Below the pieces are notes generated by a model, which was given only the letters and a program-made list of their open reading frames with translations, ran no database searches and was not told the origin of the DNA. Below, piece by piece: positions 27,899-42,916 of a stretch of 44,899 nt of DNA. The DNA comes from Gammaproteobacteria bacterium (GTDB lineage Bacteria > Pseudomonadota > Gammaproteobacteria > SZUA-152), in the NCBI GenBank assembly GCA_011321815.1, contig DROS01000101.1:1-44899 (forward strand), read 5' to 3'. Position 1 is the stretch's first letter, and every line of letters begins with the position of its first letter. The position numbers and the translations under genes were made by a program.

Positions 27899-27956
27899 AT
27901 CGTTAACAGTTGCGGCGGGCGACGGTGGCGGGTACTGGCGCGCACCAAAACTGCCC

Positions 27957-28024
27957 ATTCCCCCTCAAAACCTCCCCCTGCAAGAATAAATACGCGCGCG
28001 GGTGTGCGCATAACTTTGGGGAAT
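27957..28024 (+). promoter_or_regulatory. Candidate Shine-Dalgarno-sequestering pair in btuB leader
   Basis: ATTCCCC at 27957-27963 is perfectly complementary to GGGGAAT at 28018-28024, which contains the btuB ribosome binding site (GGGGA, about 6-7 bases before ATG 28028). Pairing would hide the site. No U-tract terminator was seen in the leader, so translational control of this kind is the more likely output of the riboswitch. The 7-bp match is suggestive only. Confidence 0.45.
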
Positions 28025-28027
28025 TTT

Positions 28028-29869
28028 ATGAAGTGCTTCAACCTTGTTCCATTAAGCCTTTTGGCAACTGTCGGATTTTCACACAACGCCTTTTCACAAA
28101 CGCAGGTCTACACCACACCCCCTGTGGTAGTCACCGCCACACGAAATGAGCAAACCATTGATGACGCCCTGGCCTCCGTCAGCGTCATTACCCGGGAAGA
28201 AATTGAACGTACCCAGGCCGCAGACCTGCAAGAGCTGTTAACAGGAAAGCTGGGGATTGATATTGTTAACAACGGTGGCAGAGGGAAAAACAACAGCCTT
28301 TACCTGCGTGGCACAAACAGTGGACACGTACTGGTACTCATTGATGGCGCAAAAATAGGCTCGGCAACACTAGGCTCTGTCGCCTTTCAACACCTTCCCG
28401 TTTCACAAATCGACCGTATCGAAGTCGTGCGTGGACCACGCTCCAGCCTTTATGGCTCCGAAGCCATTGGTGGCGTCATTCAGATATTCACCCGAAAGGC
28501 TAAAAAAGGCTTTAGTGCCAACGAAAGCGTCACCATTGGCCGCTATCGTTCAACACAAATCACCACAGGCGCATCCATGAGCAACATGGATACCACACTG
28601 AGTGTGCAGCTCGGCTATGATGAAACCGGCGGATTCAATGCACAAAAAGGCAATGACCCGGATGATGATGGCTACCAAAACACATCGCTCAGCGCCACAT
28701 TCGGCCATAAATTCAGCAACCGGGTTTCGCTGGATACAAGCTTCATCCGGGCAGAAACAAAAACAGAATATGACAGCTGGGTGCCCACGACAGACTATGA
28801 AAGCAAAGGTATCCAACAAGCCGCAGCTGCCAAGCTGAAATATACCCCGGCCCCGAAATGGGAAATGACTTTTGGCCTGGACCAGGGGCGTGATGAAAGC
28901 CAGGAAATGGCAAATGGCCTGAACACAGACCGTTTTGACACCACCCGGGACCGAATCTATCTGCAAAATGATATAACATTAAATGATACCGCATTACTCG
29001 TGCTCGGCTTCGATCGACAAACAGACACCATAAGCAGCAATATCAATTACGCAGAAACGTCACGCGATAACACAGGAGTTTTTGTGCAGCATCAATGGTT
29101 TATGCAAAATACAGATATCCTATTTGCATTCAGAAACGACAACAACGAAGCCTTTGGCAATAAGACAACCGGCAACATTGCATGGGGTTATCGTCTTGGC
29201 AAAACGATGAGGCTCCTTGCCTCCTACGGCACTGCATTCAGAGCGCCAACTTTTAACGACCTCTATTATCCCGTATCCGGTAATTCTGGCCTGTCACCGG
29301 AAGAATCCACCTCTTCCGAAATCGGCATCTCAGGCAATCAACACTGGGGAAACTGGAATCTCAATTTTTATCACACCGACATCAATAACCTGATCAACTG
29401 GGCATGCGCGATCAATTGTGATGATGCTGATTTCTTCAACGATATCTGGCAACCCTTCAATATCGGCAAAGCACGTATTCGTGGGCTGGAAGCTGGCATG
29501 ATGACTCGCGTTCAAGAATGGACAATTGCATCCACGTTAAGTCTGGTCGACCCGAAAGACGTCAATACCGGAAACAAACTTCAACAACGTGCATTCCGTA
29601 CGGCACGCATCGACATTGACAGAAACAGTAAAAAACTGTCCGCTGGCGCCACCATCATGGGGCAAGGTTTCCGTTATACCAACACCTCAAACTCGGACAG
29701 GCTGGACAGCTATTACCTGATCAACCTGCGCGCCAGCTATTCTGTTTCAAAACAATGGATGCTCCGCTTGAAACTCAACAACGCACTTAATAAAGATTAT
29801 GAACGCCAAAAAAGCTATAACACGGCAGGACGCAGCATCTTTGTAACCATATCTTATTCAACGTCATAA
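28028..29869 (+). CDS. btuB: TonB-dependent vitamin B12 receptor BtuB
   Basis: This encodes 613 residues from ATG 28028, where the signal peptide begins (MKCFNLVPLSLLATVGFSHN, cleavage near AFS-QT). A longer in-frame start at 27824 would overlap the riboswitch and is rejected. The TonB box region is VVVTATRNEQTID, the plug is ~40-150 (LQELLTGKLGIDIVNNGGRG, LVLIDGAKIGSATLGSVAF, VVRGPRSSLYGSEAIGGVIQ), and the rest is a 22-strand barrel ending in the aromatic-terminated RSIFVTISYSTS. Length matches E. coli BtuB (~614). B12 specificity follows from the riboswitch and the flanking btu genes. Confidence 0.94.
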   Translation: MKCFNLVPLSLLATVGFSHNAFSQTQVYTTPPVVVTATRNEQTIDDALASVSVITREEIERTQAADLQELLTGKLGIDIVNNGGRGKNNSLYLRGTNSGHVLVLIDGAKIGSATLGSVAFQHLPVSQIDRIEVVRGPRSSLYGSEAIGGVIQIFTRKAKKGFSANESVTIGRYRSTQITTGASMSNMDTTLSVQLGYDETGGFNAQKGNDPDDDGYQNTSLSATFGHKFSNRVSLDTSFIRAETKTEYDSWVPTTDYESKGIQQAAAAKLKYTPAPKWEMTFGLDQGRDESQEMANGLNTDRFDTTRDRIYLQNDITLNDTALLVLGFDRQTDTISSNINYAETSRDNTGVFVQHQWFMQNTDILFAFRNDNNEAFGNKTTGNIAWGYRLGKTMRLLASYGTAFRAPTFNDLYYPVSGNSGLSPEESTSSEIGISGNQHWGNWNLNFYHTDINNLINWACAINCDDADFFNDIWQPFNIGKARIRGLEAGMMTRVQEWTIASTLSLVDPKDVNTGNKLQQRAFRTARIDIDRNSKKLSAGATIMGQGFRYTNTSNSDRLDSYYLINLRASYSVSKQWMLRLKLNNALNKDYERQKSYNTAGRSIFVTISYSTS

Positions 29870-29886
29870 AATGGCGCCGGGTGGAT

Positions 29887-29938
29887 GCGGCCATGAAAGA
29901 CAAACCGGAAAGGCTGCTTTCAATGGCCGCATACACTT
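29887..29938. terminator. Terminator hairpin between convergent btuB and btuF
   Basis: GCGGCCATGAAAG (29887-29899) pairs with CTTTCAATGGCCGC (29917-29930) apart from one bulged base, with a 17-base loop. On the plus strand the stem is soon followed by CTTTTTT, giving an intrinsic terminator for btuB. On the minus strand no U tract of equal quality follows, so btuF termination is less certain. Confidence 0.7.
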
Positions 29939-29950
29939 TTTTACAACAAC

Positions 29951-30841
29951 TCATCGCGCCGTTTCAATTTGTTTACACAATGCCTCTGCCCCCTGCAAAA
30001 TACGCGGCGTGTGGCGCTGGATAATATCCGGATTAACGTAAAACAAATGATTATTTTTCACCGCCTGCAAAGCAGGCCAACGTCGCCAGTCATCTTTCCA
30101 GCCGGGATGATTGAGTGCCGAATTGCCTGCCACAATCACCTCGGGATCTTCGCGCAACACCGCTTCGAGACTGATTTTAGGTGCCAGTACCGGCAAACCC
30201 GCAAACACATTACGCCCGCCACACAGCTCGATCACCTGGCTGATAATATGCTCACCATTGACCGTCATCAAAGGCCGGTGCCAGACCTGATAAAACACCG
30301 ACACTGCACGGACCGCACGATAGCGATTACGCAATTCGAGCAACTTGTGCCGAAACATCATGCTGGCTGCATTGGCAATGGCTTCGCTTGCCGTCAGTTT
30401 GCCAAGACGTTCAAGATTACCGGCCACATCCTCCAATTGCCGGGGCTCACTAAAAAACACCGGAATAGACAGGGCTTGCAATTTTTCCAGCGCAGCAGCC
30501 GGGTTTGCACTTTGCCAGGCTACAATCAAATCCGGCCGCAAAGCCACAATGGCTTCCAGGTCAAAGGCATTGTAACTGCCAACTCTTGGCAGTTTTTTTG
30601 CCGCCGCCGGATAATCACTATAAGACACCGCACCGACAATGTACTCCCCAGCTCCTGCGGCATACAACAGCTCGGTAACGTGGGGGGAAAGGCTGATAAT
30701 GCGTTTCGCAGGCGCAGCCAATGTCACCCTGTGGCCAGCATCATCCACCACACTGATAGCAGCATAACCATGATTAGTAATAATGCTCAGAAGCAACACA
30801 CTCAGATGCAAAAAAATCAACCGACGCCGAAACACGTACAT
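29951..30841 (-). CDS. btuF: Periplasmic cobalamin-binding protein BtuF
   Basis: This encodes 296 residues with a signal peptide (LIFLHLSVLLLSIITNHGYA). The helical-backbone type III periplasmic binding protein fold is evident: RIISLSPHVTELLYAAGAGE, YSDYPAAAKKLPRVGSYNAF, ALRPDLIVAWQSANP, and the C-terminal lobe SLEAVLREDPEVIVAGNS. It delivers B12 to BtuCD. It is not in an operon with btuCD but 3 kb away on the opposite strand, and diverges from cobU with only 41 bases between starts, so the two may share a promoter region. Confidence 0.92.
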   Translation of the reverse strand: MYVFRRRLIFLHLSVLLLSIITNHGYAAISVVDDAGHRVTLAAPAKRIISLSPHVTELLYAAGAGEYIVGAVSYSDYPAAAKKLPRVGSYNAFDLEAIVALRPDLIVAWQSANPAAALEKLQALSIPVFFSEPRQLEDVAGNLERLGKLTASEAIANAASMMFRHKLLELRNRYRAVRAVSVFYQVWHRPLMTVNGEHIISQVIELCGGRNVFAGLPVLAPKISLEAVLREDPEVIVAGNSALNHPGWKDDWRRWPALQAVKNNHLFYVNPDIIQRHTPRILQGAEALCKQIETAR

Positions 30842-30882
30842 ACCCCTTTTTCAATACAAAAAACCACTGGTAGTATAACCCG

Positions 30883-31431
30883 ATGAGCACAGAACTCATT
30901 CTTGGCGGAGCCCGCTCGGGCAAAAGCACGCTGGCCCTGCAACGCGCCCAGGCAAGCGGCAAAGCGGTAACGTTTATCGCCACAGCCCATGCGGGAGACG
31001 CAGAAATGGCCGCGCGTATTGAACAGCACCGCGCCGAGCGCCCAACGCATTGGGCGCTGGTGGAAGAGCCTGTTGCGCTGGCGGAAGCCCTCCTGCAACA
31101 TGCCGCACCGCAGCGCTGTCTGCTGGTGGACTGCCTCACTCTGTGGCTGAGCAACCTGCTAAGCGATGAGCATTTTGACAATCAACGATTTGTCAGCCAG
31201 CGCGACGCCCTGCTCCAAACCCTGCCACAATTACCAGGACAACTCATTATGGTCAGCAACGAAGTCGGCCTGGGTATTACCCCACTGGGGGAAGTCTCGC
31301 GCCGTTTTGTAGACGAAGCCGGCCGACTGCATCAGCAACTGGCCACCCTCTGCCACCGGGTCACCTTCATCGCTGCCGGCCTGCCTCTCACCCTCAAACC
31401 TCAATGCCCGGAAGGCACGGATTCAGGTTAA
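30883..31431 (+). CDS. cobU: Adenosylcobinamide kinase / guanylyltransferase CobU
   Basis: CobU phosphorylates adenosylcobinamide and adds GMP, the nucleotide-loop salvage step of B12 assembly. The 182-residue product starts MSTELILGGARSGKSTLALQ, with the P-loop at residues 8-16. Further conserved segments are FIATAHAGDAEMAARIEQHR, with the His that carries the GMP near residue 48, LLVDCLTLWLSNLL, and MVSNEVGLGITPL. It stands alone: no cobS, cobT, cobC or cbiB follows in the window. The divergent arrangement with btuF fits a small salvage module. Confidence 0.95.
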   Translation: MSTELILGGARSGKSTLALQRAQASGKAVTFIATAHAGDAEMAARIEQHRAERPTHWALVEEPVALAEALLQHAAPQRCLLVDCLTLWLSNLLSDEHFDNQRFVSQRDALLQTLPQLPGQLIMVSNEVGLGITPLGEVSRRFVDEAGRLHQQLATLCHRVTFIAAGLPLTLKPQCPEGTDSG

Positions 31432-31617: not shown

Positions 31618-31866
31618 ATGAACATTTCTGCCCTGAACACGGGTATTAACGGTATAAATCAAGGTCTGGGCAATATGCGCCGCGATGCGTCCGCCATTGC
31701 ACAGGCGGTCAACAACAGCATGGGTGACAATGCTGCGACACAGCCCACGGAAGTAACCTCCGCGCTAGTCAATCTGAAACTGGACACCTTGCAAATACAG
31801 GCCTCCACTAAAGTGGTCGAAACCGTGAATGAAATTATTGGCAGCCTGCTGGATGTCACAGCATGA
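31618..31866 (+). CDS. Small flagellar-axial-protein-like protein
   Basis: This encodes 82 residues. The N-terminus (MNISALNTGINGINQGLGNM RRDASAIAQAVN) resembles the N-terminal helix of flagellar rod/hook proteins, and the C-terminus (LVNLKLDTLQIQASTKVVET VNEIIGSLLDV) resembles their C-terminal helix, with a short linker in place of the usual middle domains. In rod, hook and hook-associated proteins these two helices pair in the axial core. A mini-protein of this form may assemble with or regulate the flagellar axis; that is inference. No flagellar genes are nearby. A candidate sigma-28 promoter precedes it. Confidence 0.7.
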   Translation: MNISALNTGINGINQGLGNMRRDASAIAQAVNNSMGDNAATQPTEVTSALVNLKLDTLQIQASTKVVETVNEIIGSLLDVTA

Positions 31867-31954: not shown

Positions 31955-32914
31955 TTACGTCGGCAAGAAATCTATGGGATATGTCACTACCATTTCTTCG
32001 ACATCCCGCGCACCAAAATTCATCATTTTTACCCGTGAAACCAGCTTACGCTCCAACTGTTTGTTGTTCAATTCACTGGAAATCACTTTACAGGATGTTA
32101 CACGACCAGAGGCTGCGATGGTGATCTCCAACACCACCTTGCCTTGCAGGGTAGGGTCTTTACGCAAAGCACGGCTGTACAGCGAATAAATCGCACCTTT
32201 ATTTTTATCAAGCACCAACGAAATTTCTTCGTAACTCCGTGAGGGCTTGCCAGAGCCACCACCACCTGTCACTTGCGGCCCCGCCTTGGCAACCATGGCT
32301 ACAGGACTTTCCACCTGTGTCGTTTCCCGTCCGGCGAGCGCGCTACGACCCACACCACTGCTTAGCCGTGATGTATCAATACCTCCACTACCTGCCGTAC
32401 CTGAAGTCAGAATATTGCGCTTCATAACCTTTGCGGCAGTCGCGCCTTTTGCCAGGGGTTTGCTTTTATTCAAAGCCTGAGTAACCGGCTTCTCGCGCAA
32501 ATCGGCCAAATCATCCGCGAATGCCAGCAAGCCCGAGGAGGCAGCCTTTTTCCGCGCCTCTGCAACCCGATCAACCTTTGGCTTTTCGACTTTCTTTTTT
32601 GGTTCTTCTTTTTTCTTTTCCTTCTTTTTTTCTTTCGGCTTTTCTTTTTTCTTCTCTTTTTTCTTTTCTACTTTTTTGGGTACCGGTTTCGGCTTGGGTT
32701 TGGGCTTCTGTTGTTCCAACAGCAACTGCGCCAGACGTGGCGGTAATTCTTCGACTTTATCCTTATCAACTTCAGGCACGGGAATCCACGGGATGACAAC
32801 ACTGAAAACAAACGCCACCGCCAAAACAATCGTGACGATTTTTTTGAGCCGCCCATCGTCCTCTTCCAGACGAGTCCAGGGCAATATAAATGAACGATAC
32901 ATCAATACAGACAC
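31955..32914 (-). CDS. AgmX/PglI-type TonB-like energy transducer
   Basis: This encodes 319 residues from a GTG at 32914, three bases after the stop of the upstream ExbD gene. One transmembrane helix (IVTIVLAVAFVFSVVIPWIP, residues ~26-45) is followed by a long Lys/Glu/Pro linker (KPKPKPVPKKVEKKKEKKKE and more, to ~115), as in TonB and TolA. A Gly/Ser-rich middle precedes the C-terminal AgmX/PglI domain (KNKGAIYSLYSRALRKDPTL then GKVVLEITIAASGRVTSCKV ISSELNN) of ~90 residues, which resembles TonB C-termini. It should span the periplasm and transmit force or energy from the TolQ/ExbD motor. In Myxococcus, AgmX-type proteins belong to the gliding/Glt machinery. Confidence 0.88.
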   Translation of the reverse strand: MSVLMYRSFILPWTRLEEDDGRLKKIVTIVLAVAFVFSVVIPWIPVPEVDKDKVEELPPRLAQLLLEQQKPKPKPKPVPKKVEKKKEKKKEKPKEKKKEKKKEEPKKKVEKPKVDRVAEARKKAASSGLLAFADDLADLREKPVTQALNKSKPLAKGATAAKVMKRNILTSGTAGSGGIDTSRLSSGVGRSALAGRETTQVESPVAMVAKAGPQVTGGGGSGKPSRSYEEISLVLDKNKGAIYSLYSRALRKDPTLQGKVVLEITIAASGRVTSCKVISSELNNKQLERKLVSRVKMMNFGARDVEEMVVTYPIDFLPT

Positions 32915-32917
32915 GAG

Positions 32918-33424
32918 TTAACCTTTATCCCGTTTGCGTAAAACAGCCAGCGAAATATTGCTGTAACTCGCTTTTGTGCAAGTCAGCATAATTTTTTTCA
33001 ACAAAGCGAAAGGAATTTTTTTATCGCCCATTATGGTGACTTCACGTAAAACAGGCTTTCCGTCCACTGTTTGAGTACGCACTTTACGCGCGGTTAAACG
33101 TAACAATTCATCTTTCAATGACTTTATTTCAGTACTTTTGGAGCGCATCACATCTGCGACCAAAGCAATTTTTCTGCCCTGCACCACAATATTCTCAGCG
33201 CCCACAACGATAACCACGGTCTCCTTTGGCAGTTGGTCAGACACAGATTCAGGAAGCTTGATTTGCTTGGCGTTAGGTAAATCCTGCACAGATGAAGAGC
33301 TTACCAACAGAAAAAACACCAAAATTGTAAAAATGTCCATCAGGGACACCATGTTCAGCGAAGCGCTACGCTTGGTACGCGCATGGTGGCGCGACATGCG
33401 CTTGGCGCGGCGCGACGCACTCAT
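32918..33424 (-). CDS. ExbD/TolR-family protein (second copy)
   Basis: This encodes 168 residues. The N-terminal cytosolic stretch is basic (SRRAKRMSRHHARTKRSA). The single transmembrane helix carries the conserved acidic residue in LNMVSLMDIFTILVFFLLVS, the proton-carrying Asp of ExbD/TolR. The periplasmic part follows (QDLPNAKQIKLPESVSDQL, then VVIVVGAENIVVQGRKIA). It overlaps the first ExbD gene by four bases, and the AgmX gene starts three bases after its stop, so the four motor genes are one translational unit. Confidence 0.93.
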   Translation of the reverse strand: MSASRRAKRMSRHHARTKRSASLNMVSLMDIFTILVFFLLVSSSSVQDLPNAKQIKLPESVSDQLPKETVVIVVGAENIVVQGRKIALVADVMRSKSTEIKSLKDELLRLTARKVRTQTVDGKPVLREVTIMGDKKIPFALLKKIMLTCTKASYSNISLAVLRKRDKG

Positions 33425-33915
33425 GGCGCATCACCAATGGCAATTTGTGGAAACAATTCTTTTTTCACAACGGATGCCGCTTCCACCACCTCAACTTCAC
33501 GCACCGTATCCATGGCTTTGACCAAAAGCTCATATTCAGTATCCGGCTCAAGTAAAATACTGATGTTTTGCTTCTCTGGAAATCGCATTTTTATTTTTAT
33601 AAGAAATTCAGAAAGTGCTGCAAAATCGTGTTTGCCTTCCGTGTTTTCGATCACCTTCAACACACCACCGATGGTATCCGCGACAACCAGTTTGTCCTTG
33701 CGCACAATCACTTCAAAATTGCGCACTTTTTTCTGGTCTTTGTTCGCTTGTGACTGCGAGTCCGGCGGAAGATTGAGTTCCAGAATACTGAGTTGGGAAA
33801 ACACCGCAGAAAGTAACAGGAACGGGATCAATACCACCATCAAGTTCATAAAGGCGGTAATATTAAGTTCCGGCGCTTCACGATGCGCGCGCCTGACACG
33901 GGCTCTTACGGACAT
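33421..33915 (-). CDS. ExbD/TolR-family protein (first copy) lacking the membrane Asp
   Basis: This encodes 164 residues of the same family. The transmembrane helix is ELNITAFMNLMVVLIPFLLL. At the position of the essential Asp (LIDxLL in ExbD, LMDIF in the sister gene) it has Asn (FMNLM). The periplasmic domain follows (ILELNLPPDSQSQANKDQKK, then VIVRKDKLVVADTIGGVLKV). Two ExbD-type proteins with one TolQ occur in known motor systems, usually with both Asp kept. Loss here suggests a structural or regulatory subunit. It starts 15 bases after the TolQ stop and overlaps the next gene by four bases. Confidence 0.92.
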   Translation of the reverse strand: MSVRARVRRAHREAPELNITAFMNLMVVLIPFLLLSAVFSQLSILELNLPPDSQSQANKDQKKVRNFEVIVRKDKLVVADTIGGVLKVIENTEGKHDFAALSEFLIKIKMRFPEKQNISILLEPDTEYELLVKAMDTVREVEVVEAASVVKKELFPQIAIGDAP

Positions 33916-33930
33916 ACGAAATCGTTCCGC

Positions 33931-34590
33931 TTAATTTGCGCTACGCGGCGCAGTTTTTTTGCTGTGTTCAGTGATTGAATTCAGAAACTTTACCGTCGCC
34001 ATTTCCATGCTGTCGACTATCTCAGTTGTCTTGGTTTGCAGCACAGTAAACATCAACAATAAAGGAATTGCCGCAATCAAACCAAAAGCCGTGGTATTCA
34101 TGGCCACAGAGATACTGGCGGAAAGTAAATCTGCCTTGTCTGCAGGGTTGGCATTTGCCACTGCGGTAAATGCCTGGATCAGACCGATGATTGTGCCTAA
34201 CAAACCCAACAATGTAGCAATATTGGCGTAGGTAGCCAGGTAGTGAGTACGTTTTTCGAGACGTGGAATAACCTCCATCAACCCCTCTTCCATGGCAATT
34301 TCTATATCATCACGACTTCTGGTCACCTGCAAACGACTCAGGCCATACGCCATAATTTTACCCACCTCGGACTTTGAGCGGCTGCTTAGCGCCATGGCCT
34401 GCTGATAATTGTTGGCCTTCATCAACGGGGTCAATTTATCCCACATGCTGCGATTGGTCTGTTTTGCAATCGTCAGATACAAATACCGTTCAATTGCAAT
34501 TGCCACGCCCAACGCAAACACCAACAAGATGATGTACATAAATACCCCACCATCCTGGAAAAATTTTACGGCCACGTTAAAGACATCCAT
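33931..34590 (-). CDS. MotA/TolQ/ExbB-family proton channel protein
   Basis: This encodes 219 residues with three transmembrane helices. The first is GGVFMYIILLVFALGVAIAI ERYLYL near residue 14. After a cytosolic loop, the second and third are THYLATYANIATLLGLLGTI IGLIQAFTAV and SISVAMNTTAFGLIAAIPLL LMF, the family core with GTI-GLI and TxxGLxxAIP motifs. Such proteins form pentamers around an ExbD/TolR dimer and convert proton flux into work. It heads the four-gene motor block and follows a 439-base gap from the upstream TPR genes of the same strand. Its 5' neighbourhood carries the palindromic element. Confidence 0.93.
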   Translation of the reverse strand: MDVFNVAVKFFQDGGVFMYIILLVFALGVAIAIERYLYLTIAKQTNRSMWDKLTPLMKANNYQQAMALSSRSKSEVGKIMAYGLSRLQVTRSRDDIEIAMEEGLMEVIPRLEKRTHYLATYANIATLLGLLGTIIGLIQAFTAVANANPADKADLLSASISVAMNTTAFGLIAAIPLLLMFTVLQTKTTEIVDSMEMATVKFLNSITEHSKKTAPRSAN

Positions 34591-34679
34591 ACTTTTCTCC
34601 TCGCATCACATAATTCGATTTTTTATGCCGCCCACCGGTGTCACACACCAATACTGTACGTTTATTGCACAAACAGTGT

Positions 34680-34845
34680 CTAGGAGCCTGTCGGACTTGG
34701 GATGAATCCACGGCGGCGGGAAATGGGCCCATTTTTCCAATCATTTTCGTTAAATAGTCACCACTATTCGCCTCAAATGATCGAAAAACTGCCCGCCATT
34801 TCCCTTTCGCCTCGCGACGATCACCTAAATCCGACAGGCACCTAG
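34680..34845. mobile_element. MITE-like palindromic element
   Basis: Terminal inverted repeats of 19 bases (34680-34698, and 34827-34845; 17 of 19 match) bound a nearly symmetrical interior: the left GGGAAATGGGCCCATTTTT and the right arm ending GCCCGCCATTTCCC pair around the loop TCACCA at 34758-34763. The whole folds into one long imperfect hairpin. No transposase is present and no clear target-site duplication is seen. It resembles short non-autonomous repeats found dispersed in other gammaproteobacteria. It lies in the 439-base gap inside the envelope-motor cluster, on the 5' side of the TolQ gene. Confidence 0.8.
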
Positions 34846-35029
34846 CGTGCCACAAAATGCACCTGCATTAACTGATTCAGCTCACAAAACCATGCACACA
34901 AAAACACACTGCACGTAACGGCATTTTAACGATATTCTTAAGTTTCTGATAGCAAACCGGGAAGGTTAAATCCAAAACCTGTACCGCATCTGTATTCACA
35001 TTATCAAACCACTATTTTTCGCTAGCTGC

Positions 35030-35335
35030 TTACCTGGCATTTCCACTGGTGACTGCCTGCGCCCCGGCGCCATATAATCTGTCATAGTATTCAACCTGAC
35101 GCTGAAACACGTCTCTGTCCAGCGCTTCGAAAGCAGTGTCAAAAGAACTGCTGCCCACACCACCTTGCAACAAGCCCAAACGCGCGCTCTTCCAGGGAAC
35201 AACATACAAAATTTTAGGCAGTTCACGACTGCCCTGGATCGCAGTTTCATCCAGTTCAATTCTATCAGCGGCGAATGCATTAAGTGGCAACAACGCAAAT
35301 AACAACAGGCAAACAAGGAAGAAAAAACGGATCAT
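35030..35335 (-). CDS. Small secreted protein of the envelope-motor cluster
   Basis: This encodes 101 residues with a signal peptide (MIRFFFLVCLLLFALLPLNA). The mature start ADRIELDETAIQGSRELPKI LYVVPWK is compact and Pro/Trp-bearing; I recall the ELPK-xLYxVPWK pattern in small proteins beside TolQ/ExbD clusters elsewhere, but no named family. The rest is helical (FDTAFEALDRDVFQRQVEYY DRLYG). It overlaps the TPR lipoprotein gene upstream by four bases (ATGA), so it is coupled to it. It is the last gene before the 439-base gap with the palindromic element. Confidence 0.75.
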   Translation of the reverse strand: MIRFFFLVCLLLFALLPLNAFAADRIELDETAIQGSRELPKILYVVPWKSARLGLLQGGVGSSSFDTAFEALDRDVFQRQVEYYDRLYGAGAQAVTSGNAR

Positions 35336-35940
35336 TTTTCAGCTCTGCGACTTTTCGCTCTGCGGCTCAGATCGACTATCCATTTTTTAACTTCGATATC
35401 CTCTTCTGGTGTCAGCTTTTGATATCGTTGATAGTGCTCCAGCGCTTCCGGTAATTTACCCATGTACAATTCCAGTAAAATACCAAAATTGAGATGAGCA
35501 TAAGCGTAATCAGGATCAATCTGCAAGGCCTTTTCATAGTAAGCCTGGGCTTGTTTAAATTCACCAGCACCACGGCTGATGATCCCCAGGTGATTCAGGC
35601 TCACTACATTTTTCGGATTGATTTTCAATGATGCCTGAAAAGCGGCCTTTGCCTTTTCCAGTTTGTTCTGGTGAAAATACAAAATACCCAGATTTGCCTG
35701 CGGTCCGGAATAATTCGGGTATTGAACCGTTAACTGCTGCAATGCCTTTTCAGCTTCCGCAGTTTTTCCTGCCCGCATTGCTGCCAGGGCAGCTTCATAA
35801 GAAGCTGCAACCTTGGGATCAATTTTTGGCAATTCTTTTTTGGGGGGAGCCGCCACATCGCGGGGCGGCTCGGTGGTTACGGCACAAGCTGCCAGCAACA
35901 AAACCGCAGCCACAAAAAACAAGTGGCCGGCACGCCTCAT
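35332..35940 (-). CDS. TPR-repeat lipoprotein
   Basis: This encodes 202 residues from 35940, where a lipoprotein signal begins (MRRAGHLFFVAAVLLLAAC, acylated Cys near residue 19); longer in-frame starts up to 36036 lack this logic. About four TPR units follow: AMRAGKTAEAEKALQQLTVQ YP, ANLGILYFHQNKLEKAKAAF, LNHLGIISRGAGEFKQAQAY YEKALQIDP, and LNFGILLELYMGKLPEALEH YQRY. It probably resides in the outer membrane, tethered to partners in the periplasm. In Myxococcus the TPR lipoprotein GltE is a motor component; equivalence here is inference. Confidence 0.85.
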   Translation of the reverse strand: MRRAGHLFFVAAVLLLAACAVTTEPPRDVAAPPKKELPKIDPKVAASYEAALAAMRAGKTAEAEKALQQLTVQYPNYSGPQANLGILYFHQNKLEKAKAAFQASLKINPKNVVSLNHLGIISRGAGEFKQAQAYYEKALQIDPDYAYAHLNFGILLELYMGKLPEALEHYQRYQKLTPEEDIEVKKWIVDLSRRAKSRRAEK

Positions 35941-36007
35941 GATTTTTTTCCAGGAACAGGAAACAAATGAATATCGCATTATAAATAGCTTTTTAATCAA
36001 AATCTTT

Positions 36008-38833
36008 TTAATAAAGATACAGGGCTGTCGATTCACTCTTTTCAGATTTTGCGTATCGCACAGGACTCAGCTTACGCAACTCCACAAAGCTCTTTTTTAC
36101 CCATTCATCAAACATACCTTCACTAACACGGCCAACATTTGACTCGTGAATGTTAATCGACTTCTCTTCAAAGGGATAGGCTTGCTCTTCCAATAAGATG
36201 TCGTATTGCTCAATTTCCTCTTGGGACAAGCCTTCCGGTCGTTCCGATTGCATTAATTCCCGTCCAAATTCATTATAAATTTCTGCAAGCCAGTAAACGG
36301 AAGCCGTGGTCACCTCGGCAATCCCGTAATCTGCCGCCAGAGTAAAGGCATCAACAGCTTCTTTCATTTTCTGTTTTTTGCGTTGCAGATTTTGCTTCAG
36401 CGGCCGTACCAGCTTGACCTGCTGGAAAGACTGGAGCGCCGGCTCGGCCAGCTCAAAAGCTGCTTTCGCTGCCAGATACCGCGTACGCGGCGTACTGCCG
36501 CTACCGGCATTCTTATCACTCCTGACAATTTCATTTAACCAGTAACGCTGCTCACCCCATTGACCTGCCTTACTGTAAATAACGGCCAATTTATGGCGTG
36601 CTTCAGTCGCCTGTTCCACGGGTTGTGGAAACATCTCCACATAACGCTTATAAGTTGCGATAACTTGTTGCTTGCTGCCCGTTTCTTCATACAACTCCGC
36701 AGCCTGCCACAAGGCAGCGCGCCTGACTTCCGGGTCTGACTTGTTTTTTGCCATATTTTCCAACTCAGCTGCTGCTTTAAGCGGCTGTTTGTTTTTCAGG
36801 TAGGCCTTGATCAGATTTTCGGATACCCGCACTGCCAATGGATGTGCAGGGTTCTTGTCACGAAACGCCAAAAATTTGTTAATCGCATCACGCCAGCTTC
36901 CGGATTCCATCAGGCTTGCTGCAATATCAAATTCCGCCGACTGAATAACACTGGAATCCGGTGACACCTGTTCGACACGGGAAAACTGGGCAATCGCACC
37001 TTGCAGATTGCCCTTTGATTTCATGTACTCACCTTGTTTGTAGACCGATGCGGCCAGCCCGTCTTTTAATGCCTTACGGCTGACATCGTTCATGCCCGTC
37101 AAGCTCAACGCGACCTTGTAAGCCACTTCAGCCCGCGCATAGTCGCCTTTTTCAAACTCTGCGCGTGCAATGATCTTCCATGCTGTGCGCCGCGTTTCGG
37201 GATTAGGTGCATGGGTCAATTCCAGAATTTGCCGCGCTGCCACAGCTGCCTGATTGTATTTTTTCAGCGCAAACATATCCTCCGCAGCCCTGGTCAATAC
37301 CTGAGCAGAACGTTTGTCGCCAGGAAAGGTTTTGCCAAAGCGCATGGCGCTACCCACTGCTAGACGGCTCCAGGTTGCTTTTTGTTTCCCTTTTGCCTTT
37401 TTTTCTGCCGCACCATAGGCCAGCAACGCGGCATAACCGGCCTCGGCGCTCTTACCAAAACGCACATAACGGTAAGCGGTTTTTTCATATTCGCTGGCTG
37501 CTTTTTCAAAATTGCCAGACTCAAACAAAAGCTCTGCATAAAGGAAGTTCAGTTTTTGCGCATTTTTGCTTTGGCCAAACCACTTCAAGTGCTGCCGGTA
37601 CCAGATAAAAGCCGTTTGATAGGCAATGGCTGTTTTGTTTTTTTGGGCTTCTGCATGAAGGTGGCGCACTACATCTTCCGAATTTTCCCTTACTGCCGTC
37701 TTCAGCTGCGCAAGAATGGTATCTTCCTGTTCCTCATAACGTTTCCAGTATGCGCCATTAATGCGGTAGCGTTTAATGAAGGTACGTTTCTCTTCGATCA
37801 GCACACTGGCAAAACCAGCCTGGGTATAGGTCTCGATTGCTTTCAAATCAAATTCAAAGGCCTTCTCATGCATGGGGTAGGCTTCTGCAAAGGCGTGATA
37901 GGTTTCCGCCGCATCCCGCACACGATTCTTTTTTACATAAAATTCTGCCAAATTACGGTAAACCCGGATTTCATAATCCCGATGCCCGTTTTTGTCAAAA
38001 TAGGGCTTGATTGATTTCCCACCGCCCAATTCATTGAACGTGAGCGTCACAATACGAAAGACATCATCGACTAATTCTTTGTCGCCACGACTCAGTTTGC
38101 GGGGCCCCACCAAGCCGACAGCCGGTTTTAGTTTCCGGTCTGCGAGAGCAAAAAAAGCTTTCAATGCCTGCTGGTAACGCTCCTGTTTGAACAGGGCCCA
38201 ACCCAGCTTTGTCGCTGCCTTTTCGTAATAACGCGAAGAAGTACCCATGGTGACTACCTGGGTATAAGCCTGCTCCGCCGATTTGAACTTGCGCCAGTCA
38301 AACAATAATTCACCACGCCGGAATTGCAGTTCGTCACGGTTGCTGGCGCGCGGATTCAAAGCCAGCAGGCGATCCAATGCACCCAATGCCTTTTTTTGCA
38401 GGCCGGCTTGTTCGTAGGCCCTGGAAAGCTGATACAGCAAGCCCGCAGAGTGCGGACCACCCGCCGATAATTTCAGGGCGTCTTCATACAGCTTGATTGC
38501 GCCACGAAAACTTGTTTCACGCAACGCCTGTGCATCGGCATCGTCACTGGCATCATTCTGCGCAAATATTTCCATTTTCTTCTGAAAACGCTCTTCACTG
38601 CGCTCCATTTCCAAATCCGCCAGCCGTCGCATGGCTTCAATCTTTTGTGAGTCCTGTTTGGTTCCGGACATGAACTCCCAATAATTATCCATCGCCTTGT
38701 TACGACTGCCTGCGACGGGGGATTCAGTATCAATCTTGATATCCAGCTCACCGAGATCATCAAGGGTTTGCTGCTGTTGTGCGCAACCCGTCAGAATCAG
38801 AACAAAAAACAACCAGGCCAACCGTACGATCAT
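36008..38833 (-). CDS. Large TPR-repeat lipoprotein of the envelope-motor cluster
   Basis: This encodes 941 residues with a lipoprotein signal (MIVRLAWLFFVLILTGC, Cys near residue 17, then QQQQ). The sequence is almost all alpha-helical repeats of the TPR/SEL1 type, for example AGLLYQLSRAYEQAGLQKKA LGALDRLLALNP, KAATKLGWALFKQERYQQAL KAF, and AEFDIAASLMESGSWRDAIN KFLAF. It overlaps the preceding 499-residue gene by four bases (38830-38833). It is the largest component and likely a periplasmic scaffold anchored to the outer membrane. Its place in the cluster recalls GltD-type proteins of myxobacteria; a direct homology claim needs a profile search. Confidence 0.85.
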   Translation of the reverse strand: MIVRLAWLFFVLILTGCAQQQQTLDDLGELDIKIDTESPVAGSRNKAMDNYWEFMSGTKQDSQKIEAMRRLADLEMERSEERFQKKMEIFAQNDASDDADAQALRETSFRGAIKLYEDALKLSAGGPHSAGLLYQLSRAYEQAGLQKKALGALDRLLALNPRASNRDELQFRRGELLFDWRKFKSAEQAYTQVVTMGTSSRYYEKAATKLGWALFKQERYQQALKAFFALADRKLKPAVGLVGPRKLSRGDKELVDDVFRIVTLTFNELGGGKSIKPYFDKNGHRDYEIRVYRNLAEFYVKKNRVRDAAETYHAFAEAYPMHEKAFEFDLKAIETYTQAGFASVLIEEKRTFIKRYRINGAYWKRYEEQEDTILAQLKTAVRENSEDVVRHLHAEAQKNKTAIAYQTAFIWYRQHLKWFGQSKNAQKLNFLYAELLFESGNFEKAASEYEKTAYRYVRFGKSAEAGYAALLAYGAAEKKAKGKQKATWSRLAVGSAMRFGKTFPGDKRSAQVLTRAAEDMFALKKYNQAAVAARQILELTHAPNPETRRTAWKIIARAEFEKGDYARAEVAYKVALSLTGMNDVSRKALKDGLAASVYKQGEYMKSKGNLQGAIAQFSRVEQVSPDSSVIQSAEFDIAASLMESGSWRDAINKFLAFRDKNPAHPLAVRVSENLIKAYLKNKQPLKAAAELENMAKNKSDPEVRRAALWQAAELYEETGSKQQVIATYKRYVEMFPQPVEQATEARHKLAVIYSKAGQWGEQRYWLNEIVRSDKNAGSGSTPRTRYLAAKAAFELAEPALQSFQQVKLVRPLKQNLQRKKQKMKEAVDAFTLAADYGIAEVTTASVYWLAEIYNEFGRELMQSERPEGLSQEEIEQYDILLEEQAYPFEEKSINIHESNVGRVSEGMFDEWVKKSFVELRKLSPVRYAKSEKSESTALYLY

Positions 38834-40329
38834 TGCTCACTACCCCAGCGCTTGGATGCATAATCATAAGTCTGCGCCATGGAAAAGCGGGTTTCACTGG
38901 CATACCCCAGCAAGCGTTGTTCGTAGCGTTTCAGGGTTTCCTGCGCCAGTGTTTTGAGATGTGTTTGTATGCGTTCCTGTACCGACAGCAGCTTGTTCTG
39001 CAAATCCACCACCTTTTGTTCCAACGTACGCCGGTGTGTCGGCGCCAGACCTTTAGCATCATCAATTTGTGACGACCACTGTTTCAGGCGCCTTTGTGAC
39101 AGGCGCAACCGGGTATAGTTTTGCAGGGTTTCCTGAAATTCGTTCGTCGCAAACAGCTGCCACAAATAACGCCCGCCGGGGATATTGGGCAGCTCTTGCG
39201 CCAGCCATCGTTGATCCGCGGGCTGATTGCCCGTGGCGCCTGCCAGCCTGTCCAGCAACACACCGCTATTCACTGCCTCTCCTGCCTGACGCACCTGTTC
39301 CATCTCCATTTTGAATTTTTCCAATGCCAGCTGGTAATGCTCCAGCGCCTGTTTAAATGCCTCCAACTGACCAAAGGCAAAAGGTACGGCCAACAAGCCA
39401 TCCTGTACCGCTGGGTCGCTCGCATCCATCTTGCTCAGCCTCAACCAAGGCACCAGGGATTTTTTGTGTAGCGCCTTGGCGGAGTAAACGCGCCCCAGGC
39501 CCAACAATGCCCGACTGGACATTGGTCCCTGCAAACGTGTTTTCACGAAATACTGCTGCGCCTTGTCCAGTTCGTTTTTACCTAAAAAGTGGTACGCCAG
39601 CATCAAATTGGCCTTATCACGCAAAGCCCGGCTTTCTTCTGTATTGGCCTTCTCAGAACCCAGTTCTTCCAATAACTCAAGGCCCTCCTCTTCGTTCCCC
39701 TGCCGGAATAACGCCACGGCCAGGTTGAAACGGCCATACGTCGCCCACACGGATTTTTCACCAAGCTGCCGTCGCAGGGATTTCTGTTCTAACTGGCGCA
39801 GTCTGGCCACTGCCTGGTCGAAACGTTGTTGTTGCATCAGCGCCATGGCGCTCAACAACAAGCGTTCCTGCTGTGCCTGGGCAGGCAAATCCTCGCTGAT
39901 GCGTTGCAGCGCTGCCAGCGCCTCGTCCGTTTGCCCGCGCTGGTACTGCACTTGCGCCAGATTCAGCCAGGCCAGATTTTGCACCCGCTGAGGCTGGCCG
40001 CTGTTCCCCAGAGACTCAAAAATTGATGCGGCCTTGTAATGCGCACCGCTGGCAAGGTACATACCCCCCAGCACCAACTGCGCCTGGGCTGGCCGGTATT
40101 TGATGCGCCCCTGGGCCAGATCGGCCTCCAGCCGGATGGTGGCCTCAAAAGGCTCGCCCATCAGCAAATCGAATTGTGCGGCACGCACCAGCGGGTCTTC
40201 AATACGCTCCCACGCCACCGGCGGCGCAGCCATGGCCTGCACGCCCCACAGCAGACAGGCCACGCCAGTCAGCATCCCTTTTAGCGCAGATCTCCGCATA
40301 TGGTTTTGTCGATTCATACGGAACAACAC
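38830..40329 (-). CDS. Exported TPR-repeat protein of the envelope-motor cluster
   Basis: This encodes 499 residues. The start is probably the GTG at 40329, directly after the TAA of the upstream gene, with GGAGTGG about 8 bases back; ATG codons at 40317 and 40299 are alternatives. The N-terminal signal peptide (RRSALKGMLTGVACLLWGVQ AMA) is followed by helical repeats (AQLVLGGMYLASGAHYKAAS IFESLG, NLAWLNLAQVQYQRGQTDEA LAALQRI). The C-terminal ~120 residues are coiled-coil-like (YTRLRLSQRRLKQWSSQIDD, EQKVVDLQNKLLSVQERIQT). It overlaps the next gene by four bases. Confidence 0.82.
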   Translation of the reverse strand: MLFRMNRQNHMRRSALKGMLTGVACLLWGVQAMAAPPVAWERIEDPLVRAAQFDLLMGEPFEATIRLEADLAQGRIKYRPAQAQLVLGGMYLASGAHYKAASIFESLGNSGQPQRVQNLAWLNLAQVQYQRGQTDEALAALQRISEDLPAQAQQERLLLSAMALMQQQRFDQAVARLRQLEQKSLRRQLGEKSVWATYGRFNLAVALFRQGNEEEGLELLEELGSEKANTEESRALRDKANLMLAYHFLGKNELDKAQQYFVKTRLQGPMSSRALLGLGRVYSAKALHKKSLVPWLRLSKMDASDPAVQDGLLAVPFAFGQLEAFKQALEHYQLALEKFKMEMEQVRQAGEAVNSGVLLDRLAGATGNQPADQRWLAQELPNIPGGRYLWQLFATNEFQETLQNYTRLRLSQRRLKQWSSQIDDAKGLAPTHRRTLEQKVVDLQNKLLSVQERIQTHLKTLAQETLKRYEQRLLGYASETRFSMAQTYDYASKRWGSEQ

Positions 40330-40905
40330 TTATTTCCACTCCTTGAGTGACACTTCAGGCAGGGGTTGATCTTTATTTGGTGTAATCCGCAGCTCGACCA
40401 CACTCCGGTTTTCGCCAGAAACAGTAACCAATACCGATGCGCGTTGAATGTCGGAGTCTTTGGACTCATGCCCCATCATCGAAAATGTAAGTTGATGCTG
40501 GCCGCCGGGTACATTACCCCAAAACAACCGGTGACTGCCCCCCTGTCGCAGTGCGGCCAATTCAGTTTTGGTGTACTGGTGAAAAGCAATCATACGTTTA
40601 TCGATTTGCAGTTGAATAGCGCTTAACCGGGAAAATGAACCAGGGTCCACTGTCACCAGCACCAACAACTGGTTTTCAGGCGATAATGCCTGCGCCTCTT
40701 TCAGCGCTGCCATTTGCGCGCCCAGCGCTGTCACTTCATTGAGTACCTGTTCGGTGGCGGCATCCAGTTGCACAAAACCTGCGGCTTCAGCGGTGCCTTC
40801 AGCAGCACCAGCTGTGTACGCCATACCAGACGCCAACAGTCCCAAGCCCATAAGACTTGCACCAAAAAATGCAGCCCCCCATCGCACCACACTCGCTTTT
40901 TTCAT
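40330..40905 (-). CDS. First gene of the envelope-motor cluster, exported, unknown
   Basis: This encodes 191 residues starting MKKASVVRWGAAFFGASLMG with a signal peptide or anchor helix to ~30. A coiled-coil-like part (QVLNEVTALGAQMAALKEAQ) is followed by a beta-rich domain (LLVLVTVDPGSFSRLSAIQL QID, then GGQHQLTFSMMGHESKDSDI) that looks like a PEGA/immunoglobulin-like ~100 residues; I give no family name. Its GGAG site precedes the ATG. It starts the run of genes ending at 31955 and is separated from the divergent GGDEF gene by 418 bases. Confidence 0.8.
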   Translation of the reverse strand: MKKASVVRWGAAFFGASLMGLGLLASGMAYTAGAAEGTAEAAGFVQLDAATEQVLNEVTALGAQMAALKEAQALSPENQLLVLVTVDPGSFSRLSAIQLQIDKRMIAFHQYTKTELAALRQGGSHRLFWGNVPGGQHQLTFSMMGHESKDSDIQRASVLVTVSGENRSVVELRITPNKDQPLPEVSLKEWK

Positions 40906-40963: not shown

Positions 40964-41323
40964 TGCCAGTCTTAAATTACCGGGAATAACACATGGTAAG
41001 GCGTCGATTGAAACCCAACAAAAGATGTCCGTTTTCGTGCCCAAATCCGGTTTTTTTTCTTGCGCAGCTTATCGTAAAATATCCGCTTGCGGGCAAGATT
41101 CAACATCTTTACAGATATGCCGACAAGGTCTCCAGTTTGCGGAAAAATAAAAGCAACCTTCGAGATCGGACAAACGTTTACCCCTATCGGCAATGGCAAC
41201 TCACCCGAACAACGACACCGAAAATTTATATACAGCTTCGGGCTGCTATATCGGCGCGCACACGCTATTTTTAACATGTTTCGCCAGACCCGGAACAAGA
41301 CAGAAAGGAAAAAACCCCGTCCG

Positions 41324-42916
41324 ATGTTTCAAACCAACGAGCACAGCAGTCCGGTTGTCTACATGACAAAACAACGACACGACACAGCACAGCGTGCTGT
41401 TTCCGACACAAAAACAGAGCCTCGGGCGAACGGCAAACGTAAACCGCTGTTTGGCGATTTTTCGATGAAATTTATTGCCTACACCAGCGCCATGGTGATC
41501 ATTGTCCTGTTTTTATCCGTCACCATCACCAACCTGTTGCTGACCAAAACCTATTACCAGGATTCGGAAAATAACGAATTCAACCAGCGGCTGGCCGACA
41601 AAGCCCGTACCCTGGAATCCCAACTGGCTTTTTTTCAACAAATTGTCGACCATGTGGCCACTCAACCTACCACCCAGGATATTCTCGAAAACAAGGATGA
41701 CACCAGCGCCCAGACCTGGGCCCTGCAAATGCGCCGTTTTCTGCCTCAGGCTATGGGTGTGGCCCTGCTCAGCAACTCCGGGGAGGTGATGGGGGCGCCC
41801 GCCGATATGCAGCTGGGCCCACAAAGCCTTACTGATCTCGCCAAGCTCAGCCAGGGCGAACCCATTAAAATGCCGCCCGTACACAGACTTACCGCCAGCA
41901 CCAGCCATTTTGACCTGGTTGCCCCGGTGCGGGATGAAACCGGCGCTCCATTGGGGATGGTATTCGTCAACTTCGGACTGACAACCCTGCAACCCCTGCT
42001 GCAAAGCAACACCAACAACGGGCAAAAGCTGGTGTTGCGCGATGGCAACAACAACGCTATCGCCCAACACGACCGGCTCGGCAACCCTGACGAAATACGC
42101 CAGCAGAAAACAGCCCTTGCCAACAGTGACTGGCAACTCAGTCTCACTGAAAGTGCTGAACGTCCGGTACTCAGTTTTTTAAGTCTGGCGATATTTAACA
42201 TCTCCGCCCTGCTGCTCACGGTCGGCATCATCGCCTTCATGGTGCGCTACGTACTATGCGCCCTGAGCACCGATTTTTCACAAATAAAAACCCTGCTCAA
42301 CGACCTGGCAAAAGGTGAATCGCTGACAAAAAAAATCGATGCGCCGCAACTACGCGAAACGGCTGAAATTCTGCCCACCATCAACCATATTCAACGCGGT
42401 CTCGACAAAAAACAACGGCTGCTGAAAACCCGGCAACTCACTGACGAGATCACTGGCCTCCCCAACCGACGCCAGTTTAATCACGAATTTGCCCGGGCCT
42501 ACGATTTTGCCCGCCGCGGTACACCAGTCTGCATAGTGCGGTTACACGTACAGGGATTGAACAATTTCAACAGCAAACAAACCACCCTGCTGCTCACATT
42601 ACTGAGCAAAACCCTCAAAGCACATGTACGCAAGGTGGACCACATAGCCCACCTCGATAAAGATCAATTTGCATTACTGATGTTTGGCATGACGGCCGAC
42701 GGCGCCACTCCCTGCCTGGAACGATTACACAAATCCTTCTTCGAGCAGCAGATGCAGCATCCAAAAATACCCGACACACTGAGTTGCCGCCTTTTTTGCG
42801 GCTATACGCTGATCCACCCCCTCCGCGACAACAGCGCTGCCGACGTGCTCAACCGCACTGAACAGGCTCTGGCCGATGCGCAAATGTCTGCCAAACACTG
42901 TATCATTGCCGCATGA
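41324..42916 (+). CDS. Membrane sensor with extracytoplasmic domain and degenerate GGDEF
   Basis: This encodes 530 residues. The start at 41324 has AGAAAGGA about 14 bases upstream; an in-frame start at 41087 has none. Helix one ([25 protein letters not shown], ~50-75) and helix two ([20 protein letters not shown], ~290-310) bracket a periplasmic CACHE-like domain ([40 protein letters not shown]). A HAMP-like linker and a GGDEF domain follow ([17 protein letters not shown]), but the active-site motif reads [11 protein letters not shown] in place of GGDEF. The domain is therefore unlikely to make c-di-GMP and may serve as a receptor. It overlaps the pentapeptide gene by four bases. Confidence 0.85.

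Follow-up and report, generated by a model that had tools for sequence, protein, structure and literature searches.

Nine consecutive genes lie on the minus strand at positions 31955-40905 of the window, the 44,899-nucleotide stretch of DNA analysed here. The list of open reading frames confirmed the place and order proposed for them in the initial annotation, and matches to Pfam and NCBIfam profiles bore out the grouping of motor and TPR genes on one strand. The nine genes, two codons discussed below and a divergent neighbour are as follows:

40330-40905, minus strand: P191, an exported protein of 191 aa (66 of 81 loci)
38830-40329, minus strand: GltC-like exported TPR protein, 499 aa (Pfam TPR, family model; 72 of 81 loci)
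36008-38833, minus strand: GltD-like large TPR lipoprotein, 941 aa (family model; 63 of 274 genomes of the class)
35332-36036, minus strand: GltE-like TPR lipoprotein, 234 aa (NCBIfam GltE below its cut-off, family model; 71 of 81 loci)
35030-35335, minus strand: S101, a small exported protein in the GltF position (77 of 81 loci)
33931-34590, minus strand: AglR-like proton-channel subunit of the TolQ/ExbB family, 219 aa (Pfam MotA_ExbB, tree)
33421-33915, minus strand: first ExbD/TolR-like protein, in the AglQ position, 168 aa (Pfam ExbD)
33844-33846, minus strand: codon for Asn24 of the first ExbD
32918-33424, minus strand: second ExbD/TolR-like protein, in the AglS position, 164 aa (Pfam ExbD)
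33335-33337, minus strand: codon for Asp30 of the second ExbD
31955-32914, minus strand: GltG-like transducer, 319 aa (NCBIfam AgmX/PglI tail)
41087-42916, plus strand: divergently encoded membrane protein whose GGDEF-like region seems degenerate (open reading frame; GGDEF by eye)

Organization and conservation of the cluster

The distances from gene to gene are 0, -4, -29, -4, 439, 15, -4 and 3 bases, the single break of 439 bases falling between the 101-residue gene and the TolQ-family gene. Pfam identifies TPRs in the 234-, 499- and 941-residue proteins. By eye, and not with a program, we assign lipoboxes to the 941- and 234-residue proteins and signal peptides to the 499-, 191- and 101-residue proteins; the names mglB, YbgC, BtuB, BtuF, CobU and GGDEF are likewise our own provisional assignments. 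Scans for promoters and terminators yielded fewer matches than in shuffled sequences. The divergent gene at 41087-42916 is possibly regulatory. Similar genes, again on the opposite strand, accompany 12 loci, and 10 of these loci are of the window type.

We compared the cluster with 80 further loci, chosen by hand from a subset of the profile matches with long matches favoured, and scored the presence of each gene by score limits of our own. All nine genes are found in 45 of these 81 loci, and in all 45 they keep one order on one strand, so the grouping is more than chance. The other 36 loci lack one or more of the nine, which the end of a contig explains in some. The initial annotation had proposed co-occurrence of the nine genes as a check and had allowed that the TPR genes might be unrelated to the motor genes elsewhere; instead, both sets travel together across genomes.

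Relationship to known envelope motors

The 219-residue protein contains a MotA_ExbB domain (3.2e-29), and the 168- and 164-residue proteins each contain an ExbD domain (2.7e-18 and 4.1e-14, respectively; Pfam). The 319-residue protein has a GltG-like layout, with one transmembrane helix (recognised by eye), a Lys/Pro-rich linker and a TonB-like C-terminal domain of the AgmX/PglI type (NF033768, 1.7e-21, 76.2 bits against a cut-off of 40; NCBIfam). The cluster thus shares its motor superfamily and TonB-like C-terminal domain with Tol-Pal and TonB-ExbBD, and it could be an ordinary extra copy of one of these, for example energising the receptor encoded by the adjacent gene at 27824-29869, which by eye we take to be BtuB-like. 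TolQ and ExbB are also the solved structures closest by sequence to the channel subunit, while the GltG-like protein has no relative among PDB sequences at E<=1. However, none of the cluster proteins reaches the NCBIfam equivalog cut-offs for TolQ, ExbB, TolR, ExbD or TonB, and AglR-type rows separate from five TolQ/ExbB rows, the whole of the outgroup, with a support of 0.988 (FastTree). The genome already has four other TolQ/ExbB-family genes (L002-L005, which we call TolQ and ExbB by eye, L005 being presumably TolQ judging from its neighbours), and the AglR-like subunit stands apart from them in the tree. Unlike Tol-Pal and TonB-ExbBD, the cluster has two dissimilar ExbDs and fixed TPR and lipoprotein partners, and the transmembrane segment of its GltG-like protein has no His, as in 58 of 64 rows overall; TonB/TolA-like proteins have a His in this helix, within the SHLS motif (PMC12204202). 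An ordinary copy, which the initial annotation had kept in view, is in our judgement extremely improbable.

A related reading is that the system tethers or stabilises the outer membrane in the manner of Tol-Pal, moving no cargo. Two TPR lipoproteins and a TolR-type ExbD pair would suit such a role, but the cluster has no Pal or TolB match in Pfam or NCBIfam, the genome has what we take from its neighbours to be TolQ elsewhere (L005), and the distribution is patchy (63 of 274 genomes). We regard tethering as unlikely.

The resemblance to the AglRQS-Glt gliding machine of Myxococcus was proposed initially from the list of parts, and it extends to homology of motor and scaffold as judged by NCBIfam, our family models and the tree. 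In L253, the GltC-like model recovers the TPR gene that precedes GltD in Myxococcus (9e-20), and the GltD- and GltE-like models recover the GltD-type (2e-88) and GltE-type (9e-40) genes. We take L253 to be an nfs-like Myxococcus cluster, a name given by eye and an assignment made from gene order only (OMP-OMP-GltC-GltD-GltE-small gene-GltG). Homologous motor, GltC, GltD, GltE and GltG, together with the nfs-type barrels described below, would be compatible with gliding. The specific gliding models are far from satisfied, however: NCBIfam GltE gives the 234-residue protein 47.5 bits (E 1.2e-12) against a cut-off of 225, and GltG gives the 319-residue protein 49.9 bits (1.8e-13) against 650, whereas the myxobacterial controls score 747 and 1072 bits. 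Pfam finds no FHA domain on the GltG-like protein, and the genome, which is 99% complete, has no MglA match at E<=1e-15, making gliding of the Myxococcus kind unlikely. Luciano et al. (2011; PMC3169522) also argue that motility is unlikely to be powered by the core by itself. A gliding interpretation is thus not sustained, and we rate it as very unlikely.

The same paper describes a stand-alone core complex, composed of the AglRQS motor with GltC, GltD, GltE and GltG, in gammaproteobacteria, Geobacter, one betaproteobacterium and Fibrobacter, and leaves its function unassigned. The same seven gene types are found in one cluster here; as judged from these genes, the core of the cluster is the complex of Luciano et al., and the earlier view of it as the best candidate for an undescribed system was mistaken as regards the core. 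We found no functional study of the gammaproteobacterial core complex since 2011 and no experiment in any gammaproteobacterium.

The two ExbDs differ at the residue expected to carry protons. The first has Asn24 at the site of the Asp, and Asn is found there in 64 of 65 loci, the exception (L099) having Asp; in the second, all 65 loci have Asp (Asp30 in the cluster). In contrast, the AglQ and AglS rows from Myxococcus both have Asp in our alignment, in agreement with PMC9389320.

Accessory proteins, outer-membrane barrels and a second locus

Two further genes are conserved in the cluster. For the core complex, Luciano et al. mention a single additional gene, which has no homologues in myxobacteria or Bdellovibrio, and they limit GltA, GltB and GltF to those two groups. 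P191 does have homologues in Myxococcota: against three Myxococcota rows hhalign gave a probability of 95.6 and a score of 57.1, whereas none of 100 shuffles scored above 19.6. At the level of sequence profiles, P191 is thereby homologous to the gene that immediately precedes GltC in the Myxococcus, Hyalangium and Enhygromyxa clusters. It is not universal, since 15 of the 81 loci lack it. Its predicted fold is one long helix followed by a transthyretin/Ig-like beta-sandwich (AlphaFold, pLDDT 88). Residues 76-191 gave structural matches with Z of 8-10 (VIA-align), and Foldseek gave none at E<=0.001; the transthyretin/PepT-like match was set aside as a clue to function, this arrangement being common and uninformative. 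S101, with the consensus GN.ELPK.LYIVPW, occupies the slot of GltF. Its match to GltF had a probability of 84 with signal peptides included, and once these were removed the score dropped to 16.5, below the 16.9 reached by the best shuffle; with the mature parts of 75 rows the score was 16.0, exceeded in 4 of 300 shuffles. Position and motif are therefore only suggestive of homology to GltF.

GltD is present in 63 of 274 genomes of the class, spanning 40 families, and in 24 of 24 genomes of the family by profile search; up to three candidates were scored per genome, making copy numbers lower bounds. No match to GltD was found on plasmids. The GltD tree was built with FastTree, which warned of long branches. 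Among the GltD-positive genomes, 60 of 63 have an AglR-type motor; among the 211 others, none has. The three GltD-positive genomes with no AglR-type match (G089, G098 and G209) are in about 440 to 780 contigs.

Beyond what is described for the core complex, NfsA/NfsB-type barrels (TIGR04565, OMP_myx_plus) accompany the system: they exceed the cut-off in 42 of 274 genomes, from 27 families, all of which are GltD-positive, and in 0 of the 211 GltD-negative genomes, the Fisher tests of these co-occurrences taking no account of kinship. A barrel and a GltD share a contig, no more than 25 kb apart, in 31 of the 42. Both barrels of the nfs-like Myxococcus cluster are above the cut-off of the same model, and the gammaproteobacterial barrels align to those of myxobacteria far above shuffles; a search of PDB sequences with the barrel gave a chance match only. 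The barrels are not universal, being absent above cut-off from 21 of the 63 GltD-positive genomes.

The window has no such barrel, but the same genome has them at a second locus, on contig C23, which encodes SH3-OMP, OMP, TlpA, a DUF3570-like protein, P191, GltC, GltD and S101. No motor, GltG or GltE was found in the 20 kb of C23 that was read. The Nfs spore-coat system of Myxococcus is a scaffold that borrows the AglRQS motor (PMC3858216), as the C23 scaffold may do, and the binding of AglR to both GltG and NfsG is a precedent for motor sharing; Nfs differs in having kept NfsG and NfsE, whereas C23 has neither GltG nor GltE.

The gene content of C23 also raises the possibility that the motor energises redox or metal handling at the outer membrane, through the barrels, a TlpA-like thioredoxin, a DUF3570-like barrel and, in some genomes, the flavin transferase ApbE. 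Of the 81 loci, 18 have a TlpA-like gene no farther than 7 kb from GltD, and at the same distance 18 have a DUF3570-like gene, 17 OMP, 15 SH3-OMP and 11 ApbE; DUF3570 is an ApbE substrate according to PMC8238504. Of 274 genomes, 42 have a low-scoring DUF3570 variant (80-160 bits); 41 of these are GltD-positive and 39 have the barrels. The association is weaker when the variant is not split off (53 of 71 DUF3570 genomes GltD-positive). These links fit a redox role as well as a role in handling surface cargo, and count against the latter. However, the [ST]GA[ST] site is present in only 6 of 18 proteins of the variant and absent from the C23 copy, one third of the GltD-positive genomes have no barrel above cut-off, and the 31955-40905 locus has no member of the cassette. 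Some type VI secretion loci also contain the module, and elsewhere it adjoins genes for giant proteins, which in one subclade lie directly downstream of GltG; the barrels are not linked to either kind of locus. The giant-protein loci form a different subclade from the window-type loci, which have no linked cargo. A redox or metal role appears doubtful, although less so than tethering.

Proposed mechanism and implications

We favour, with some reservation, a stand-alone proton-driven motor that spans the envelope, is homologous to AglRQS-Glt/Nfs, and moves or assembles surface cargo by way of its scaffold and the C23 barrels. Homology, gene order, co-occurrence, the Asn/Asp asymmetry and the second locus are observed; the pairing of the ExbDs, the stoichiometry, the path of force, the sharing of the motor and the cargo are what we infer here. 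If the motor resembles known 5:2 motors, its pair of ExbD-like proteins would sit inside a ring of five AglR-like subunits. As one ExbD keeps the proton-binding Asp and the other has Asn, the pair would most naturally be obligately mixed, with a single proton-binding Asp. Proton flow would then move the GltG-like arm, which would contact a scaffold in the periplasm and outer membrane made up of GltC, the GltD and GltE lipoproteins, S101 and P191. This scaffold may end at the nfs-type barrels encoded at the motor-less C23 locus, and the motor of the cluster may serve both scaffolds, as AglRQS serves Glt and Nfs. Most likely, the motor would move or assemble a polymer or large protein at the cell surface, and would not drive gliding.

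More tentatively, AglRQS-GltG with GltC, GltD, GltE and S101 could be a general plug-in force generator driven by protons and coupled, in different bacteria, to barrels of the outer membrane together with the redox cassette, to giant surface proteins and their OmpA-domain partner, or to entire type VI secretion systems. The motor would be an asymmetric 5:2 assembly with an obligate Asp/Asn pair and one protonatable Asp per rotor. We consider this wider proposal possible, though it is the less probable of the two.

What is new here, relative to the known core complex, are the homologues of P191, the association with nfs-type barrels, the Asn/Asp asymmetry and the type VI and giant-protein contexts. 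PMC9389320 leaves open whether each ExbD-like subunit pairs with its own kind or with the other, a question on which the conserved Asn/Asp asymmetry has a bearing. With nfs-type barrels tightly linked to the system and a second copy that has no motor, motor sharing can be put to a concrete test in an organism other than Myxococcus, and the type VI variant may give that secretion system a new source of power or a new anchor.

The cluster and its published relatives

The initial annotation had placed nine same-strand genes in this region, and this is confirmed by an open reading frame (ORF) reading of the window, in which nearly all of the genes touch or overlap and the single 439-base gap lies between the 101-aa gene and TolQ. 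The labels are backed by Pfam and NCBIfam, which match one MotA/TolQ/ExbB protein, two ExbD/TolR proteins, one AgmX/PglI-tail protein and three TPR proteins; the 191-aa and 101-aa exported proteins (P191 and S101) have no family match in either at E<=0.1. The cluster and its neighbours are:

31955-40905, minus strand: P191, GltC-like, GltD, GltE-like, S101, AglR-like TolQ, ExbD1, ExbD2, GltG-like
27824-31431, adjoining: BtuB-like receptor, BtuF-like binding protein and CobU-like gene (names by eye)
31618-31866, plus strand: ORF of 82 aa immediately 3' of GltG, on the other strand
41087-42916, plus strand: divergent membrane protein beside the cluster, its GGDEF-like region degenerate-looking in signature by eye; similar genes accompany 12 loci on the opposite strand, 10 of these loci being window-type

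The cluster had been put forward as a candidate for an undescribed system, but the same gene set is already in print: Luciano et al. 2011 (PMC3169522) describe AglR, Q and S with GltC, D, E and G as one cluster, named the core complex, in several gammaproteobacteria, one betaproteobacterium, a Fibrobacteres member and Geobacter, and give its function as unknown. The same statement recurs in Wartel et al. 2013 (PMC3858216). The window cluster belongs to this known kind. No functional study of the gammaproteobacterial system was apparent among titles and abstracts of openly licensed papers. Related background is a 2015 review by Agrebi et al.

Profile searches found GltD in all 24 genomes of the family and in 63 of the 274 genomes of a class sample; an AglR-type motor (called at E<=1e-40) accompanied GltD in 60 of the 63 and was found in none of the 211 without it. 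We then compared 81 loci, namely the window and 80 picked by hand among GltD matches of both samples. P191 was present in 66, the GltC-like gene in 72, GltD in 81, GltE in 71, S101 in 77, TolQ in 67, ExbD1 and ExbD2 in 65 each and GltG in 64. All nine genes occurred in 45 loci, with identical order on one strand in 45/45. This genome has four additional TolQ/ExbB-family genes, by eye one TolQ and three ExbBs, and in a FastTree phylogeny of 81 rows a split with 0.988 support separates these and one other TolQ (locus L093) from the AglR-type group. Neither outcome that the initial annotation named as refuting, TPR genes unrelated to the motor genes in other genomes or an ordinary Tol or Ton motor by phylogeny, was observed: the cluster is one system, and it is neither Tol nor Ton.

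Comparison with the Myxococcus machinery

The suggested likeness to AglRQS-Glt is also borne out, as models from the gammaproteobacterial loci detect the Myxococcus AglRQS genes (L255; TolQ 9e-51, ExbD 9e-20 and 8e-26) and a syntenic Myxococcus cluster, OMP-OMP-GltC-GltD-GltE-small gene-GltG (L253). On the window proteins, the gliding GltE model scores 47.5 (cut-off 225) and the gliding GltG model 49.9 (cut-off 650). The corresponding scores are 747 and 1072 for the myxobacterial L252 and L260 genes, and 122 and 336 for those of the nfs-like L253. MglA-type regulators, noted earlier as absent nearby, have no match in the whole genome; MglA occurs in 8 of the 274 sample genomes, three of them with GltD. 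The window cluster is unlikely to be the equivalent of the Myxococcus gliding machine.

In Hyalangium (L257:4011-15081), mglB (by eye) and mglA precede P191-GltC-GltD-GltE-GltF-GltG, and the 20 kb read contain no motor genes. The Myxococcus P191 cluster and mglA share one 15-kb contig, with P191, GltC and GltD visible before the contig end (L251).

P191, with a predicted structure (pLDDT 88) of signal helix, long helix and beta-sandwich, is shown by profile alignment to be a homologue of the gene that immediately precedes GltC in Myxococcus, Hyalangium and Enhygromyxa (hhalign probability 95.6, score 57.1; maximum of 100 shuffles 19.6). S101 matches GltF in place, size and export signal, with a motif in the same register; mature S101 scores no higher against GltF sequences than the best shuffles, and its homology to GltF is unproven.

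The first ExbD has Asn at the expected proton-carrying Asp site in 64 of 65 loci (the exception is L099), and the second has Asp in all 65. Both ExbD-like rows have Asp in Myxococcus, Hyalangium, Anaeromyxobacter, Sorangium and a Nitrospirota genome; Nannocystis and Enhygromyxa have Asn in the first. The window system differs from Myxococcus, where AglQ and AglS each have the Asp according to PMC9389320, which states that mixed versus like pairing is unknown. The simplest account of a conserved Asn partner would be an obligate mixed ExbD pair, giving a rotor with one Asp, as we infer.

Probable outer-membrane partners and a second locus

Within 7 kb of GltD, TlpA-like thioredoxins and DUF3570-like barrels are each found in 18 of the 81 loci, OMP_myx_plus barrels (TIGR04565) in 17 and SH3-domain barrels in 15; at least one of the four is present in 24 loci and all four in 9. 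In the nfs-like Myxococcus cluster both barrels exceed the TIGR04565 cut-off, and the gammaproteobacterial barrels group with myxobacterial ones in profile comparison (scores 91.7 and 47.8; shuffle maxima 20.3 and 18.3, 60 shuffles each). TIGR04565 exceeds its cut-off in 42 of the 274 genomes, all 42 with GltD (Fisher p 4e-34, kinship ignored), and in 27 of 40 GltD families. The barrel lies within 7 kb of GltD in 22 of the 42, within 25 kb on the same contig in 9 more and on other contigs in 11. In this genome the cassette lies on contig C23:

C23:87212-90610 (L045:14213-17611): SH3 barrel, OMP_myx_plus barrel, TlpA and DUF3570-like genes
C23:90924-92999 (L045:17925-20000), upstream of the cassette: protein of 691 aa or more carrying PF18582, a hydrazine-synthase-alpha-like domain

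The cassette is followed by a second P191, GltC, GltD and S101; no GltE, motor or GltG was found in the 20 kb read. GltDs of the window type (12 rows) and of the motor-less C23 type (4 rows) form separate clades, each with support 100, and by our reading of the family search 21 of 24 genomes encode a second GltD scoring 500 bits or more. A parallel is offered by Myxococcus, where, according to PMC3858216, Glt and Nfs share a single AglRQS motor; the window motor may likewise serve the C23 copy.

In view of the TlpA/DUF3570 cassette, the system may alternatively have a redox role, which we consider less likely. DUF3570 falls into two score classes, the low-scoring one occurring in 42 genomes, 41 with GltD. 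However, a flavinylation-type motif is present in only 6 of 18 DUF3570-like proteins and is absent from the C23 one, which argues against such a role.

Giant proteins, type VI loci and the proposed function

Other loci suggest that the module may have further outputs. In seven of them GltG is directly followed by a gene for a long secreted protein. Those of L269, L270, L271, L272, L273 (686-18949) and L274 are 1610 to 4729 aa long, two being cut by the stretch; the L273 protein (4376 aa), the only giant scanned, has DUF11 domains. A protein of ~1700 aa comes next in L269, L272 and L273, with an OmpA domain confirmed in the latter two, and one 5192-aa frame in L274 spans both proteins. L087 and L266, of the same subclade, have no giant.

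In three other genomes, AglR-Q-S-GltG follow a kinase gene and GltC-D-E-S101 follow a ClpV-type gene within type VI secretion loci:

L280 and L281: G150:C23
L282 and L111: G222:C69
L283 and L284: G099:C5

Pfam confirms VipB, TssF, VasE, DotU, IcmF, TagF and the kinase in G099, TssG in G222 and a ClpV-type AAA protein in G150, the remaining type VI genes being assigned by resemblance. These stretches yielded no P191, and a search of openly licensed literature gave no apparent published description of such loci. L278/L279 (G007:C27) likewise combine a kinase gene with motor and Glt genes, but no type VI genes were recognised in the stretch read.

The comparisons demonstrate the homology, gene order, co-occurrence and Asn/Asp pattern; the ExbD pairing, the path of force, sharing of the motor and the cargo are deduced from them. 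The best-supported reading of the cluster is an Agl-type, proton-driven trans-envelope motor, which would act through lipoprotein scaffolds and nfs-type barrels to move or assemble a surface cargo.
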